Translations under genes and position numbers: made by a program
The notes under the pieces: model-generated
Told to the model about the DNA's origin: nothing
What the model saw: only the letters and a program-made list of their open reading frames with translations
Databases searched by the model: none
DNA from: an uncultured cyanobacterium
GTDB lineage: Bacteria; Cyanobacteriota; Cyanobacteriia; PCC-6307; Cyanobiaceae
Direction of reading: 5' to 3'
Assembly (NCBI GenBank): GCA_903858015.1
Contig: CAIOGZ010000046.1
Coordinates: 1-64,000 of the forward strand
DNA length: 64,000 bases
In this document: in pieces, positions 11,671 through 45,515 of the stretch
Layout of the letters: each line of letters starts with the position of its first letter
How positions within the stretch are numbered: the first letter of the stretch is position 1

Positions 11671-12713
11671 GGCCCTTCCGGCTGCAGAGCAGCCCAGGCC
11701 ACGGCGGGATCGGCGTTGAACAGCGGACCGCTGGGCCGCCATTGGGGCGCCAGGCCGGGCGCAGTGGGGGTTGGACCGCGCCACTGCAGGGCCGCAGCGT
11801 GCTCCACCAGCCGCCGCCCGACACCGGTTTCAAAGGCGGTGCTCACCATCCAGCCGGGCCTGCCGACGGCCAGGGCCGCCAGCAGGGGCCGGGGATCCCC
11901 CTCCTGCGCCGGCCGCCGCACCTGCCAGCCGCTCCAGCGCTCCCGTAGCCAGGGGTGGCGCCTCAGGGATTCATCCAGCGCCACCGGCAGCCGATGCGCC
12001 AGAGCCTCCAGCCCTTCGATGTCGTCGTCGGCCAGGGGCTGCTCCAACCATTCCAGCCGCGGCTCATCGACCAGCCGTTCGGCCCAGGCGGCGGCGGTGG
12101 CCCGATCCCAGCCAGCGTTGGCATCGAGCCGGAGCCGGGCAGCCTCAGGCAGGCGTTCCAGCAACACCTCAAGCAGCTGCCGTTCCAAAGCATCATCGCC
12201 GGCGGCGACCTTCCACTTCAGCGTCTGGGCGTTGCTGGACAAGGCCTGCTCCAGGGCTGGCAGCAGCGCCGCACCCGCCGGCAGCAGCCAGGCCGATGGC
12301 GGTGCCTGCAGCCATCCTGTCGCCAACCATCCTGCCGGCAAGCTTCCTACCGGCAAACTTCCAGCCGGCAAACTTCCAGCCGGCAAGCTTGCTGCCGCCT
12401 CAGCAGCCAAGCCATCGAGCTCCGCCAGGGCTGCACCCACGGCAAAGGCCAGGGGCCCGGGCAGCGCTGGGAGCGCCTCCTCCAGCTGCTGGCGGCCCTG
12501 GCAGGGACCAAGCTGGGCGATCGACAGCCTGCAGGCCTGGATCGGATCCGAGCCCGGGAACGGCGCCGCCTCCCCCCAGCCCAGCCGGCCATCGGCGGCC
12601 TCCAGCCGCAGCAACCAGCCCCGCCGTTCGGCCAGCCTGCCCTGGGCCGTGACCAGGGCCCGCGCCAGCGGGAACTGGAACGGCCGCCATGCCAACCGCA
12701 GCAGCGCCTTCAC
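11667..12713 (-). CDS. menC: o-Succinylbenzoate synthase
   Basis: Enolase-superfamily enzyme that dehydrates SHCHC to o-succinylbenzoate; 348 residues from a GTG at 12713 which overlaps the menA stop as GTGA. Signatures: WGEAAPFPGSD near the N-terminus, LKWKVA (the first lysine motif), RLDANAGWD (metal-binding Asp), WLEQPLADDD (Glu) and VALDESLR. An unusual linker of pentapeptides of the LPAGS / LPVGS type, between about 105 and 137, is encoded by six 15-base repeats (12304-12393). It sits in the loop between the capping domain and the barrel. The neighbours menA and menE complete the pathway segment. Confidence 0.88.
   Translation of the reverse strand: MKALLRLAWRPFQFPLARALVTAQGRLAERRGWLLRLEAADGRLGWGEAAPFPGSDPIQACRLSIAQLGPCQGRQQLEEALPALPGPLAFAVGAALAELDGLAAEAAASLPAGSLPAGSLPVGSLPAGWLATGWLQAPPSAWLLPAGAALLPALEQALSSNAQTLKWKVAAGDDALERQLLEVLLERLPEAARLRLDANAGWDRATAAAWAERLVDEPRLEWLEQPLADDDIEGLEALAHRLPVALDESLRRHPWLRERWSGWQVRRPAQEGDPRPLLAALAVGRPGWMVSTAFETGVGRRLVEHAAALQWRGPTPTAPGLAPQWRPSGPLFNADPAVAWAALQPEGP
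12304..12393. repeat. Six 15-base tandem repeats inside menC
   Basis: Six consecutive 15-base units, the last four being variants of GCCGGCAAACTTCCA. They are read in menC as five-residue units. The unit length is a multiple of three, so copy number can change without shifting the frame. Similar 15-base arrays occur in six other genes of this window. Confidence 0.85.
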
Positions 12714-22178: not shown

Positions 22179-23516
22179 TTAAGCGCCGCTACCTACATCA
22201 ATCCGGCTGTAAACATCCCAAAAGTGTTGCATCTGCTCCAGAGTGCCCAAGCTGACCCGTAGGGAGCCATCGATGAGCGGTTTGCCGGCCATCGAACGCA
22301 CCAAGATGCCCGCCGCCCTGAGCCCTGCTTCCACCTGCACCACCGGCGTCCCGGGCCAGAGCAGCAGGTAGTTGCCGCCCGCGACGTGGTGTCTCACCCC
22401 TGCGGCTTGTAGCTGCGCCACCAACCAATCGCGGGCGCGCCACACCTCGGCCACGTAGGCATCCACGTAGGCCTGATCCGCCAGGGCCGCAAAGGCGGCG
22501 GTGACGGCGAAGCTGTTGATGTCGTAGGGCCCCGTCACCCGGCTGACCCGATCCACCACCGCCGCCGGACCGATCGCAAAGCCGATCCGCAGCCCGGCGA
22601 TGCCGGCGGTTTTGGAGAGCGAGCGCAACACCAGCAGGTTGGGATAGGCGGCGAAGGGATCCCCGGCGTCGGCCCGCTGAAGCAACAACGGCAGCACGCT
22701 GTCGCCGCTGAAGGCCTCGTAGAGCTCATCCACCACCACCAGGCTGTGGGGCGCAGCGGCCGCCAGCTCCAGGATCAGCTCCGGCGCCAGGCGGGTGCCG
22801 GTGGGGTTGTTGGGGTTGCAGAGCAGCAGCAGCCGGGGCGGCTGCGGGCGGCCTGGGGGCTGGGCCAGGCCGGCAGGGGCCGCTGGGCAGAGGGCAGCGC
22901 GGATCTCCTCCAGCGGAAAGGCGAAATCGGGCAGCCGGTAGGGAATCGCCTCAATCTCCATCCCCTGCATGCGGGCGCAGGGGCTGTAATACCCGAAGGT
23001 GGGGCTGGTGGTGAGCAGCAGATCAGCGCGGGCTCCGTAGGCCTGGAACACCGCGTGGATCGCCGCATCGACGCCATTGAACAGGCCGATCTGCTCCGGC
23101 CGCAGGCTGGGCCCGGCAGCAGCGGCGGCGCTCAGCGAGGCCGCTACCGCCTGCCGCAGGCCGTCGTATTCCGGATAGATGGCGTAGTGGTCGGCGGGAA
23201 TGGCGCGGATCGCCGCCACCACCTGGGGGCTCGGCCCCACCGTGTTCTCATTGAAATCGAGCCGCAACAAGCCGCGCCGACCCTCCAGCGGGGCGCTATA
23301 GGCCTGGAGGGCCTCCACCTCGGGCCGGGCCAAGGGAGTAGCCGCCGCTCCAGCCGCCGCCGCAGGCGGGGCAACCGCAGGCAGCCCATCGGCTGGCAGG
23401 CCAGTGGCTGGCTGGGCCTCGGCAGGCAGGCCATTGGCTGGCAGGCCAGTGGCAGGCTGGGCCACGGCAGGCAGGGGTGACGGCTCAGCCGCCGGGGGAA
23501 CACCGGATCTGTCCAT
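22179..23516 (-). CDS. Class I/II aminotransferase, histidinol-phosphate aminotransferase-like
   Basis: A 445-residue PLP enzyme of the HisC-like group. Signatures: RLDFNENTVGPSPQVV, NPNNPTGTRL, VVVDELYEAF and the PLP-binding lysine in LRSLSKTAGIAGLRIGFA. The fold starts near residue 68; before it is an unusual 65-residue tail of repeats (PATGLPANGLPAEAQ type) coded by six 15-base units. An internal start after the tail would also give a normal-sized enzyme. Whether it acts in histidine synthesis is not settled. Confidence 0.8.
   Translation of the reverse strand: MDRSGVPPAAEPSPLPAVAQPATGLPANGLPAEAQPATGLPADGLPAVAPPAAAAGAAATPLARPEVEALQAYSAPLEGRRGLLRLDFNENTVGPSPQVVAAIRAIPADHYAIYPEYDGLRQAVAASLSAAAAAGPSLRPEQIGLFNGVDAAIHAVFQAYGARADLLLTTSPTFGYYSPCARMQGMEIEAIPYRLPDFAFPLEEIRAALCPAAPAGLAQPPGRPQPPRLLLLCNPNNPTGTRLAPELILELAAAAPHSLVVVDELYEAFSGDSVLPLLLQRADAGDPFAAYPNLLVLRSLSKTAGIAGLRIGFAIGPAAVVDRVSRVTGPYDINSFAVTAAFAALADQAYVDAYVAEVWRARDWLVAQLQAAGVRHHVAGGNYLLLWPGTPVVQVEAGLRAAGILVRSMAGKPLIDGSLRVSLGTLEQMQHFWDVYSRIDVGSGA
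23377..23466. repeat. Six 15-base tandem repeats in the aminotransferase N-terminus
   Basis: Six consecutive units of the GCTGGCAGGCCAGTG kind, two of them identical, followed by a partial seventh. On the coding (minus) strand they encode pentapeptides such as LPANG and LPADG. Confidence 0.88.
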
Positions 23517-29157: not shown

Positions 29158-29274
29158 CACTAACTTCAGGCCGCAGTGGTTTTGGGATGCCGAACGCCCA
29201 TCATCACCCGCCCGAGCCCACCCACGCGGGAAACCAAGCGCATGCATCGGGTCGGGTGCATGATGTTGTTAGGC
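29158..29274 (-). other. attC-like site behind the TIR gene (tentative)
   Basis: Read on the minus strand, the segment opens with GCCTAAC, a perfect match to the integron R'' box RYYYAAC, and ends 117 bases later with GTTAGTG, two mismatches from the R' box GTTRRRY. A palindrome CATGCA...TGCATG lies inside. The inner arms pair only poorly by eye. Position (behind the TIR stop) and a truncated integron integrase elsewhere in the window support the idea, but it is unproven. Confidence 0.3.
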
Positions 29275-30245: not shown

Positions 30246-30318
30246 GTGATCTGTCTCCCTGGAATGAGCGGTTGAATTGTTGACGCTGATGGAAGCTGCT
30301 AGTCCTAACTCTTTATTT

Positions 30319-30468
30319 GGAGGTTCCGAGAACCACGCCCCAAGTGCCCTCCCCTTTCCGAGAACCACCCTGGGGCATCGGGCTGGATACCCGCAAAACC
30401 ATTGCGGTGCAAAGCTCCTTGGCAAAGGCCAGCCAAGCATAGGCGTGGTTTGCGGGTCCGATAACCAC
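30319..30468. repeat. 150-base dispersed repeat, copy A
   Basis: It aligns without gaps, about four-fifths of positions identical by eye, to 44639-44788 (copy B). It contains three CCGAGAACCAC-like words and a long stem CCCGCAAA...TTTGCGGG with about 55 bases between the arms. On the minus strand a shared frame beginning VVIGPANH reads into a TAA at the end of the homology in both copies. This may be a duplicated small gene end or a structured mobile unit. It occupies most of the 30246-30820 gap with copy C. Confidence 0.75.
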
Positions 30469-30609
30469 ATGCTTGGCAAGATACAAAACTCAGATCGGAT
30501 GGCCAGACTGGCCATGAGCCCAATTGAAAGCGAAGATAGGCGGCATAGCCAATCCGATCCCTCGAACTCTTTATAAACGCCTCAACAAACTACAGCCCTC
30601 CGGCCGTTG

Positions 30610-30719
30610 CTTTCCGTGAACCACGATACGATCACATGGCTATTGCCTTGCATCACTTGCCCCATAGTGCTTTAGAAAGCCTTGCCCAAGATAGCGGTAG
30701 TTCAGGGTCCGATAACCAC
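30610..30719. repeat. Degenerate third copy (C) of the dispersed repeat
   Basis: Only the ends match copies A and B: CTTTCCGTGAACCAC at the left and GGGTCCGATAACCAC at the right. The interior differs and the shared minus-strand frame is broken by stops. It may be a decayed relative. Confidence 0.4.
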
Positions 30720-30820
30720 TTGTTCAGGACACTAAACCATGCCGACTGCGCCACCCGCCTTTCAGCGCCCCATTCCGCCGGTGGGCCCAGCCCTCACCCG
30801 CCCCCGACAGGGCCGAGGCC

Positions 30821-33823: not shown

Positions 33824-35428
33824 TCAGCCCAGGTTCAAATCGAGGCCCAGCTGAATCACGCTGTTGTCGGCGGCGGCGGCGCTCTTGCGCCGACGGCCCC
33901 CAGCACCGTTGGCTTTACCAGCGCTGGCTTTTCCAGAGTTGGCTTTTCGAGCGGAGCGGCGGGATCCGTGCTTGCTGTGGATGGCGGCGGCCAGGGCGCC
34001 GAAGTTTTGCTGCTGGCGGCGGCCCCAGAGCCGCTCCCGCGCCGCGCGGGCAGCGGCCACCGGATCCACCACCGGCTCGGGGTAGTCCACCCCGAGCCTG
34101 AAACCCAGCCGCCGCGCCTTGCTGGGCGGCAGGCACCAGGGTTCATGCAGGTGCTCCAAAGGCACGGCGGCCAGTTCCGGCAGCCACTGGCGCAGAAACA
34201 CCCCCTGGGGGTCGTGATCTTGACCCTGTTTGATCGGGTTGTAGATGCGGATCGTGTTGATGCCGGTGGTGCCCGCCTGCATCTGGCATTGGCTCCAGTG
34301 GATGCCGGGCTCGTAATCGAGGAAGAGGCGGGCCAGGTGCAGGCCGGTGGCGCGCCAGGGCAACTCCAGGTGGTGGCTCGCCACCGACAGCAACATCGCC
34401 CGCATGCGGAAGTTGATCCAGCCGGTGGCGATCAAGGCGCGCATGCAGGCATCCACAAACGGCAGGCCGGTGCGCCCCTCACACCAGGCCGCCAGCCGCT
34501 CCGGGTCGGCGTCGCTGGGGTCGACGACCGTGAGCGGATGCAGTTCGCGGAACTCCAGATCCGGCTGGCTTTCCAGCTTCTGGATGAAGTGGCAGTGCCA
34601 GTGCAGCCGCTCCTCGAACCCCCGCAGCGCCCGGGGCCATTCGCCGCGCTCCGCCGCAGGCAGGGCCCGCAGGGCGGCGCCGCGCTGGCGGCTGGCCTGC
34701 ACCACCTCCCGCATCGACAGGGTGCCCCAGGCCAGGTGGGCCGAGAGCCGCGAGCAGCTGGCGAAGGCGGTGGTGGGGCTGGAGAGCTCGCGGTGGTAGC
34801 GGGCGCCGCGCTGCTGCAGAAAACTCTCCAGCACGGCCAGGCCCTCACGGCGGCCACCCCGCTGGCGGCCCGCGCAGGGATCCGGCGCCAGGGCCAGCTG
34901 GGCGGCCGGGGGAATCGGGCCGGGATCGAGGCCCGGCAGGGGCGTCAGCGCCGCCGGGGGCGGCGCGATCGGCTCGGCCATGCGCGCCTCCCAGCGGCGG
35001 GCCCAGCCATCGCGGCTGGCCAGCCGCCGGATCACGCCAAACTGCGGGATCTCGTGCCAAGGGATGCCGTGGGCGCGGGCCCAGGCGGCGACGCGCCGGT
35101 CGCGGGCGTAGGTCCAGCCATTGCCGGTTTCCTCATGGCTCCACAGCCCGGCCACCCCAAAGCGGCGCTGGGCCCGCTCCAGCACCTGCTCCACCACCCC
35201 GGCCCGCACCACCAGGGGCTGGCCAAGCCGCGCCAACTCCATTCGCAACTGCTCCAGGCCCTCGGCGCAGAAGGCCCAGTGGCGAGCTGAGGCATCAGCC
35301 TGCAGCCAAAACTCCGGTTCCACCACGAACAACGGCAGCACCGGGCCGAGCCGACTGGCCTGCAGCAGCGGCTGGTGATCGCAGCTGCGCAGGTCGCGCT
35401 TGAACCAAACGATCTGCAGCGGGCCCAT
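33824..35428 (-). CDS. phr: Deoxyribodipyrimidine photolyase / cryptochrome family
   Basis: A 534-residue FAD flavoprotein expected to repair UV dimers with light. It opens IVWFKRDLRSCDHQPL (antenna domain). The FAD-binding domain includes LSAHLAWGTLSMREV, WRATGLHLARLFLDYEPGIHWSQ, TTGINTIRIYNPIKQGQDHDP and an N-terminal HEETGNGWTYARD. It belongs to the FAD-binding/DASH-related branch; photolyase activity is not proven. The C-terminal tail with SGKASAGKANG comes from three 15-base repeats (33908-33952). Its 5' end was duplicated to 42084-42511. Confidence 0.87.
   Translation of the reverse strand: MGPLQIVWFKRDLRSCDHQPLLQASRLGPVLPLFVVEPEFWLQADASARHWAFCAEGLEQLRMELARLGQPLVVRAGVVEQVLERAQRRFGVAGLWSHEETGNGWTYARDRRVAAWARAHGIPWHEIPQFGVIRRLASRDGWARRWEARMAEPIAPPPAALTPLPGLDPGPIPPAAQLALAPDPCAGRQRGGRREGLAVLESFLQQRGARYHRELSSPTTAFASCSRLSAHLAWGTLSMREVVQASRQRGAALRALPAAERGEWPRALRGFEERLHWHCHFIQKLESQPDLEFRELHPLTVVDPSDADPERLAAWCEGRTGLPFVDACMRALIATGWINFRMRAMLLSVASHHLELPWRATGLHLARLFLDYEPGIHWSQCQMQAGTTGINTIRIYNPIKQGQDHDPQGVFLRQWLPELAAVPLEHLHEPWCLPPSKARRLGFRLGVDYPEPVVDPVAAARAARERLWGRRQQQNFGALAAAIHSKHGSRRSARKANSGKASAGKANGAGGRRRKSAAAADNSVIQLGLDLNLG
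33908..33952. repeat. Three 15-base repeats in the phr C-terminus
   Basis: Units GTTGGCTTTACCAGC, GCTGGCTTTTCCAGA and GTTGGCTTTTCGAGC, exactly 15 bases each, read on the minus strand as (S/A)GKA-type pentapeptides in the C-terminal tail. Confidence 0.8.
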
Positions 35429-35629
35429 GGCGGCGGAAGCTAACCAGGGGAAGGGGGTAGGTGCGGTGGGCTGAACGAATGCGGTGGCGCCTGCGGATGG
35501 GGTGGCGGGGGCGCCATCATTTGGAGCACAGGGGGGTCTCGCCAGTGGCCCTGGGCCCCTTGTGCTGCATCGGAGCTTCCTGCCGCCCAATCCGGCCAGG
35601 CTGGAATCAGCAGCTCAACGGAGGTGCCG

Positions 35630-42083: not shown

Positions 42084-42511
42084 ATCGCGGCTGGCCAGCC
42101 GGCGGATCACGCCAAACTGCAGGACTTCGTGCCAGGGGATGCCGTGGGCGCGGGGCCAGGCGGCGACGCGGCGGTCGCGGGCGTAGGTCCAGCCGTTGCC
42201 GGTTTCCTCATGGCTCCACAGCCCGGCCACCCCAAAGCGGCGCTGGGCCCGCTCCAGCACCTGGCGCAGAAGGCCCAGTGGCGAGCTGAAGCATCGGCCT
42301 GCAGCCAAAACTCCGGTTCCACCACGAACAACGGCAGCACCGGGCCGAGCCGACTGGCCTGCAGCAGCGGCTGGTGATCGCAGCTGCGCAGGTTGCGCTT
42401 GAACCAAACGATCTGCAGCGGGCCCATGGCGGCGGAAGCTAACCAGGGGAAGGGGGTAGGTGCGGTGGGCTGAACGAATGCGGTGGCGCCTGCGGATGGG
42501 GTGGCGGGGGC
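42084..42511 (-). pseudogene. Truncated second copy of the photolyase 5' end
   Basis: Bases 42084-42511 repeat 35009-35512 nearly exactly, including 80 bases upstream of the phr start. A 76-base piece is missing (bases 35189-35264 of the original), which shifts the frame after residue 54, and the gene stops being homologous left of 42084. The right part is almost identical and the left part a little more diverged. A recent segmental duplication that cannot make a photolyase. Confidence 0.9.
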
Positions 42512-44131: not shown

Positions 44132-44551
44132 CTAGTGATCATGCGGGACTGGGCCAGTGCGAGCGCAGCCTAGAGCGCGGCTAAGCAACAAGTGAAGCTC
44201 AAAGTGACATAGCCCCGCAGGCCTCCCCAAATGGATGGCGCTTGCGAGCAGGTGCGATTGAAGCAAGCCGGCAGGGCTGCGCACACCCAGGGGGCCGCGT
44301 TCGAGTAAGTGGGTGGCAAACGAATGGCGGAAGGTGTGGCTCGTGGCAGGCGTGATCATTCCAGAGGCAAGCAACGCCCACCGCACGGCCTTTTGAATCA
44401 CGCTGGGATCAAGGGGAGGCGCACCGTGATCAGCAAGCGCTGAATCCAGGTCAAGCACCCGGAGCCGCAACGCCTCCAAACGAGCAAGGATGTAGACGAC
44501 CAAATGGGAGGCTGGGGGGCTGCGAAGATTAGCCATCACCCTGGGTCCCAC
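44132..44551 (-). pseudogene. Integron integrase (IntI) remnant with an internal deletion
   Basis: The frame includes [18 protein letters not shown], then [20 protein letters not shown], then [12 protein letters not shown]. These match the C-terminal part of IntI-type tyrosine recombinases ([30 protein letters not shown]). Between HLLE and RGPLG the family should have about 30 residues (VQELLGH ... IYTHVLN) with catalytic His and Tyr; they are deleted. No N-terminal domain is present. It is therefore inactive. Confidence 0.75.
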
Positions 44552-44638
44552 ATCCTGAACTGAACGTGCTTGTTGGCTGCGTGAAAGTCTTGGTCCGTCG
44601 TCAACAGGGTCAGATCGTTACTGCGACACAACTGCTTA

Positions 44639-44788
44639 GGAGGTTCCGAGAACCACACCCCCGAGTGTATCCGCTTTCCAAGAACCTCTCTGGGGCATCG
44701 GGCTGGATACCCGCAAAATCATTGCGGCGCAGTGCTCCTTCGCGAAGGGGTCCCAGGCATCGCTGTGGTTTGCGGGGCCGATCACCAC
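44639..44788. repeat. 150-base dispersed repeat, copy B
   Basis: Aligns without gaps to copy A at 30319. Read on the minus strand it encodes VVIGPANHSDAWDPFAKEHC... up to GVVLGTS and a TAA. The frame is open upstream to at least the FSKYCVGNQL segment. It lies 90 bases from the integrase remnant, on the side where the cassette array of an integron would begin. Confidence 0.72.
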
Positions 44789-44965
44789 TAGTTGGTTTCC
44801 TACACAATATTTACTGAACTGTAAGCCTAATGGCTGCAGTCACGGCCATGGGTCTAGATCATTGTGCTGCTCAAGTCCCCCTGATCCAGTTGGAGCACAA
44901 CCTCCACCTGTGGTGCCCTGCCCGTCTTGGTGCCACTATGGGTGGAGGCAGCAACTCTTGCGCTG

Positions 44966-45259
44966 ATGGCACTCACCCACTACAACGTCCAGAACCTGCG
45001 GGGACAGTCCCTGCTGTTTCGCTGCATGGAGACTGGCTTTGTGACCACCGCCCCAGCCCTGACCCGCTACCAGCAGGGCAGGGGCATCGACCCGAGCCGG
45101 CGGGAGCTGGTGGGGGAGCGGCCGGCGCAATGGTGCCGGAGTCGCCCCGTGACGATCTGCGAGCACTGCGGCCAGGCGATCAAGGGCAACCAGTGGACGC
45201 TGCGTCAACACCAGCAGAGCAAACGCTGTAGAAAAACAAGGCCGCCGCTGCCGCTCTGA
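44966..45259 (+). CDS. Small protein with a C2-HC zinc-finger-like end
   Basis: A 97-residue protein (an upstream in-frame start at 44927 is also possible). Its C-terminus reads TICEHCGQAIKGNQWTLRQH then a Cys in KRC, a plausible zinc site (CxxC ... H ... C). The middle has LTRYQQGRGIDPSRRELVG. I do not recognise the family. Its stop overlaps the next ATG (TGATG), so the two are coupled. Confidence 0.5.
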   Translation: MALTHYNVQNLRGQSLLFRCMETGFVTTAPALTRYQQGRGIDPSRRELVGERPAQWCRSRPVTICEHCGQAIKGNQWTLRQHQQSKRCRKTRPPLPL

Positions 45260-45447
45260 TGGACCACCCGATCGGGTTGCTGGTGCCCTGGCTGGTGTTC
45301 GCCCTGGCCGCCGGGCTCAAGGCCTGGCAGATCGGCCGGCTGATCCACGATCAGCTGCGCAACCACCGGCGCGGCACGGCCCGGGGGATGGAGCGCTTCC
45401 GCGCCGAGCTGGAGCTGAGCTGGCAGCGGAGTCAGTCGCTGCGTTGA
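45259..45447 (+). CDS. Small single-helix membrane protein
   Basis: 62 residues: a hydrophobic segment IGLLVPWLVFALAAGLKAW followed by a charged cytoplasmic tail. Coupled to the preceding gene by one-base overlap. Function unknown. Confidence 0.5.
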   Translation: MDHPIGLLVPWLVFALAAGLKAWQIGRLIHDQLRNHRRGTARGMERFRAELELSWQRSQSLR

Positions 45448-45515
45448 GGGCAGCAGCAGGCTCCTGGCCCCGGTGTCAGAGCACCGAGACCGTGATCCAG
45501 CGGCTGGTTGTGTTC

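Follow-up and report, generated by a model that had tools for sequence, protein, structure and literature searches.

An open reading frame in a 64,000-nucleotide stretch of DNA from an uncultured cyanobacterium, hereafter the window, is a pseudogene: a C-terminal leftover of the integron integrase gene intI that has suffered two or more deletions, the catalytic His/Tyr segment having gone in one of them. Its genome has 19 intI places, this one included, and from the edges and common deletions of the copies we think it probable that the intact IntI mobilises intI and attI as cassettes and that decay then scatters dead pieces such as this one. A more far-reaching version, which seems to us evenly balanced, is that the integron platform has become mobile within its own system. 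IntI would move intI-attI units and solo attI elements as cassettes with an attI as their site, dead units would be moved in trans, and the result would be a selfish non-autonomous family that fills the genome with docking sites and fossils. The mobile-looking attI/intI units are a possible new form of integron. In a literature search by titles and the beginnings of abstracts, with subscription papers mostly outside it, no account of intI or attI moving as a cassette was found, and the novelty of this proposal is provisional. If it is true, an integron can set copies of attI, its landing pad, into arrays and other locations, whether or not intI goes along, which would explain the scattered intI pseudogenes and cassettes of an integron-rich genus and would pose the question of whether a mobile cassette can use attI as its recombination site in vivo.

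Results

The reported frame is an integrase gene remnant

Reading of the open frames verified the frame reported by the first-pass annotation (Table 1). Its residues 47-86 match positions 237-276 of the integron integrase profile TIGR02249 (6.8e-11, NCBIfam), the best match among tyrosine recombinases, followed by XerC (1e-7) and XerD (7e-6) from the same collection, Pfam PF00589 (5.6e-6, slightly below the gathering score) and the best phage integrase family of PHROGs (2.3e-5). At 42 bits, this piece (relic B) lies below the curated TIGR02249 cut-off of 265, and it is filed here as a pseudogene fragment, not a gene. Measured against the C37-type intI of its own genome, relic B has lost 28 residues in frame at the join, and the LLGH and tyrosine motifs went with them. 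The catalytic motif of tyrosine recombinases reads R...HxxR...H...Y; relic B keeps HTFRH and has lost LLGH and YTH, so that its set is incomplete. DNA alignment places a second deletion before LDPSVIQK, with a degenerate earlier patch still in frame. Also deleted is the patch that distinguishes IntI between boxes I and II; the intact copy has it when aligned to structure 2a3v. Because the catalytic His/Tyr segment is gone, relic B cannot make a working recombinase. The first-pass annotation had called the frame the end of an IntI lacking its catalytic segment, and had proposed a search with IntI and XerC/D models as the check; the call holds up, with IntI matching better than XerC/D and phage integrases.

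XerC, XerD and phage integrases belong to the same superfamily and do match relic B, but we find descent from any of them hardly credible and rejected it on the weaker scores in NCBIfam and PHROGs. IntI gives the best score and the C-terminal end of relic B matches intI. Moreover, a sister relic on contig C60 (15.8 kb; locus L016), which is 76% identical in DNA to relic B over 180 columns and has a similar second deletion, is followed by an attI-like core and an open frame.

On its own, relic B is an ordinary integron fossil. No attI was found on its 3' side, nor a clean G|TT edge, and its route of entry is not preserved at this spot. The complete arrangement of intI, adjacent attI and attC cassettes is present in this genome on contig C15, not here. 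A search of 42 genomes of the genus for a syntenic empty site, with seven candidates scored per genome, returned none; pieces of the flanks do match. The adjoining sequence at 44898-45454 has matches of 76-85% in relatives, in up to three places per genome, and is a multi-copy piece.

Table 1. Integron-related features of the window
Feature	Position	Strand	Details
Reported open frame spanning relic B	44132..44551	-	139 aa
intI relic B, C37-type	44261..44478	-	part of box-I patch, DPSVIQK... segment, 28-aa deletion, C-terminal end
3' remnant of vapC-like gene	44536..44634	-	85.6% over 125 bp with L022 6676-6800 (contig C92)
Degenerate attI, C37 type	44634..44807 (about)	-	model positions 103-277
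intI relic A, final codons of another, heavily decayed intI, immediately 5' of attI	44800..44879 (about)	-	DNA matches
Partial attI-like copy	30610..30736	-	1.7e-7
Solo attI element, ~265 bp	30302..30583	-	left end G|TTCGAG, right end G|TTAGGA
TIR-domain cassette gene, 314 aa	29301..30245	-	TIR_2 3.7e-27
Canonical attC closing the TIR cassette	29189..29274	-	56.4 bits

The relic locus and a second cassette cluster in the window

The vapC remnant, the degenerate attI and relic A share the strand of relic B and are all upstream of it. The 40-residue frame of the vapC remnant matched no Pfam family; its fuller copy on contig C92 (L022) has a PIN domain (1e-14) and, in front of it, a VapB antitoxin (1.1e-15), the two forming a vapBC-like toxin-antitoxin pair at L022 6100-6810. 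Relic A and its attI (44879-44636) match L022 5831-6077 at 5e-22 and locus L017 at 2e-7, and the order on C92 is intI relic, attI, vapBC and, further on, another intI relic. The 150-base repeat that had been noticed near the frame does belong to an integron and is of attI type: positions 44636-44788 and 30316-30468 share 82% identity across 154 columns, the first copy being the attI of relic A and the second, at 30304-30570, being part of a complete solo attI element. The order of these features had been read as one inactive integron with its repeat on the expected side. The presence of an integron repeat nearby bears this out in part, but this attI goes with another intI relic, and the locus has the look of a tandem of integron pieces that has collapsed, not of a single inactive integron. 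The window relics fit, if indirectly, the decayed product of an intI/attI tandem, an origin that the edges of relic B no longer show.

The region at 29.2-30.7 kb is a small cassette cluster, which reads solo attI, TIR gene, attC on the minus strand, and its attC has the hairpin form RYYYAAC...GTTRRRY. CALINs are clusters of attC that lack an integrase; the attC-ended cassette at 29.2-30.3 kb resembles one in standing away from a working intI, and differs in that the cluster begins with a solo attI.

Other repeats were seen in the window. A direct repeat of ~430 bp at 35009-35512 and 42084-42511 is 96-99% identical between copies 7 kb apart; the frame at 42084-42511 begins with what we take to be a photolyase/cryptochrome N-terminus (MGPLQIVWFKRNLR) and looks truncated. 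Positions 1-136 are 94.9% identical to L011 732-867 on contig C85, a contig-end repeat, and 15-base periodic repeats occupy 12305-12394 and 23362-23466.

One intact integrase among many relics

The genome (3.84 Mb in 100 contigs) holds a single intact intI, on contig C15, whose product scores 457 bits against the TIGR02249 cut-off of 265 and aligns with the solved IntI4 structure 2a3v over residues 12-323 of 327 (1.1e-81). A second long intI, on contig C37, lacks about 31 residues in frame, and the two represent coexisting lineages of 59% identity, C15-type and C37-type. At E <= 10 a profile search with TIGR02249 gave 32 matches, a single place sometimes accounting for several. Leaving out the recombinase on C49, which shares about 30% identity with IntI, the three weak places C23, C76 and C18:85.5k and a short fragment at C37:8.75k, and adding relic A, recognised by its DNA matches, we count 19 intI places, the intact one and 18 others: two each on C15, C37, C60, C92 and C46, four on C18, and one each on C85, C11, C71, C12 and C16. 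C85 and the C18 end overlap by 189 bp at 98%, and the intI copies there may be one place. Many of the copies are followed by attI and then by differing cassettes. The C49 recombinase, at L012 79-849, is a different tyrosine recombinase with one stop.

A covariance search of the genome for attC, as the first-pass annotation had proposed, found at least 42 sites at E <= 1e-3 on 20 contigs (44 listed at E <= 1). This is a lower bound, with 150 of 3036 first-look candidates scored by a model built from 13 attC sites, some of which stem from this genome and match by construction. A pattern scan over 410,773 real bases gave 16 matches, of which 13 had gone into the model; one shuffled set gave none. 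Hairpins of ~55 nt at L009 18191-18245 and L109 9498-9551, containing GATCGTG...CACGATC, are like short attC sites and are probably not attC. The intact intI and these sites lend no support to "inactive integron" as a description of the organism.

Edges and lesions of the intI-attI units

The left ends of the C15-type units fall at G|TT in four of four cases, amid unrelated flanks, the one at the C18 end being the least sharp. All five right ends that can be read break off after the attI core GCG|, with TTRGGC next in four and CTGGGC in C16, and the sequences beyond them differ from one another. Immediately in front of the C11 unit is a C15-type attI core (5.8e-6; top 0.1% among 1200 G|TT sites used as background), and immediately in front of the C15 unit a C37-type attI end (top 0.3%); of the other two, one lies inside another intI relic and one at no recognised site. 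Taken together with 20 left ends of solo attI elements (below), G|TT is found at 23 of 24 left ends. The comparisons with background sites come from an anchored test of two attI strings on each of the 24 edges, 48 tests in all. Several observations speak against mobility. G|TT apart, the left ends have no recognisable att site of their own. Some flanks are related (C57 with C18 at 72k; C15 at 43.4k with relative G005), so that the edges are not all independent. Finally, an exact TTCGAA occurs within 500 bp 5' of intI in one of 40 loci from relatives (L153), so the intI-bearing unit is known from this genome alone, apart from one relative intI (L150; one of 56 upstream regions) that stands behind a collapsed solo attI.

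The lesions carry a record of their own. Three dead C15-type intI copies have three deletion junctions in common and two of them a fourth, a nesting which indicates that a dead gene was copied at least twice. Several C37-type relics also have a small insertion in common, the 16-base core of which occurs exactly at four places in the genome, three of them in intI relics. The fourth, on C54, showed no similarity to either IntI when compared by tblastn at E <= 0.1, and the C15-type deletions, not the insertion, are therefore the main proof of copying after death.

Solo attI elements

An element of ~265 bp is scattered through the genome, with 11 recognisable left ends here and nine in six relatives, and at least a partial match occurs in 14 of 42 genus genomes, this one counted; L210, L219 and L220, from relatives and without the left arm, and partial copies were dropped from the set of 20. 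Of these 20, 19 have G in front of TT and one, C22, has A. Six (C48, C18 twice, C15 and relatives G025 and G030) have a canonical attC across the left end, an attI-like end precedes the edge in four (background fraction <= 0.007, two strings per edge), and the C6 copy has a weak attC there (16.5 bits). Nine left edges showed neither a recognised attC nor an attI end. Among them is that of the window copy at 30.58 kb, for which the anchored attI-end test gave no significant result (background fraction of 0.57), although nhmmer detects part of an attI 27 bp ahead of this edge.

In 11 of 56 intI loci searched, the stretch immediately 3' of intI resembles the 3' half of the element (E 5e-15 to 2e-20). 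Ten of these are among the 14 loci whose best match is the C37 type, and the C37-type attI end is readable in ten of the 11, always as G|TT. The element could instead be a cassette that has no gene and an unusual attC, or else a small repeat of transposon type, its likeness to attI being secondary. Its cassette-like position between cassettes in the C18 array and its fixed left arm speak for such an origin. We consider it quite improbable nonetheless, given the match behind intI and a folding unlike that of attC (z 0.15 for a copy on C15 versus -3.8 for a true attC, one copy each), and a transposon-like repeat of this length would be too short for a transposase. That the repeat is itself an attC was ruled out by this folding, which is less clear for the C37 attI (z -2.2, somewhat better than shuffles), and by the attI match in relatives. 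A G before TT would suit a cassette, but attC is absent from these elements and attI stands in its place.

The edges and lesions also bear on the possibility that nothing beyond ordinary decay took place, several integrons having been acquired through duplication as well as transfer, with intI decaying wherever it stood and no special mobility. In the available portion of PMC2426708, intI pseudogenes and several intI per genome are described as common and intragenomic duplication is proposed; the pseudo-integrons of that account resemble the present case in all three respects. The coexistence of two intI lineages likewise suits simple decay, as does the want of clean edges at most C37-type relics, including that of the window. 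Yet nested common deletions require copying after death, which, together with several edges at the integron crossover point, sets this genome apart from those pseudo-integrons as far as the same portion describes them. With 23 of 24 edges at G|TT and a solo attI directly behind an attC in six of 20 cases, we regard decay in place as an unlikely account of the whole.

Integrons across the genus

Integrons are not rare in this genus. TIGR02249 scores above its cut-off in 34 of 60 genomes and attC is found at E <= 1e-5 in 40 of 42 genus genomes, this genome counted in both, and for the genus the first-pass statement that integrons are rare in cyanobacteria has to be given up. The parts of two publications available to us agree in listing cyanobacteria among the phyla with integrons (PMC8618304) and in using attC models from cyanobacteria (PMC8352920). 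Among the matches listed, with 80 loci kept, the closest relatives of the intact IntI include those of Synechococcus sp. 1G10 and BSA11S, Cyanobium and Vulcanococcus, at 64-69% identity. In 40 intI loci from relatives, all 43 attC sites at E <= 1e-3, spread over 26 loci, lie 3' of intI on its strand, and none was found at that threshold in the 118.5 kb upstream of intI; att sites in front of intI are thus the exception. Relative G023 has five TIGR02249 matches over about one profile range, one of them about 450 bp from its intI.

Discussion

We think it probable that the scattered copies arose through the integron's own chemistry. An att site that had come to lie upstream of intI, or of attI, would be recombined by the intact integrase with the downstream attI, and the piece in between would leave as a circle still carrying attI, which could re-enter at another att site. 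Given that attC recombination proceeds through one strand and replication, the donor copy could remain, and repeated rounds followed by decay would scatter dead pieces of intI like those of the window. This scheme of excision, circle and re-entry is proposed because attC x attI recombination gives insertion and attC x attC recombination excision, as set out in the available part of PMC8618304. Alternatively, the duplications may have come about by homologous recombination between att repeats.

In having intI, attI and attC-bearing cassettes, and an intact IntI akin to IntI4, the system resembles a chromosomal (sedentary) integron. It departs from that type in that intI-attI and solo attI copies are many and dispersed in place of one platform, and in that intI is transcribed towards the array, an orientation known from other phyla. 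MITE-like elements are short, non-autonomous derivatives that lack a recombinase and are multiplied in trans. The solo attI elements would resemble them on each of these points; they differ in that their edges are integron crossover sites and in that inspection by eye revealed no terminal inverted repeats.

The cassette genes beside these sites include several with TIR, FRG or Schlafen-AlbA_2 domains, families often tied to phage defence, and in the C18 array, where two of three solo attI elements come immediately after an attC, these elements are flanked and separated by cassette-type genes with TIR-like, SLFN_AlbA_2 and FRG domains.
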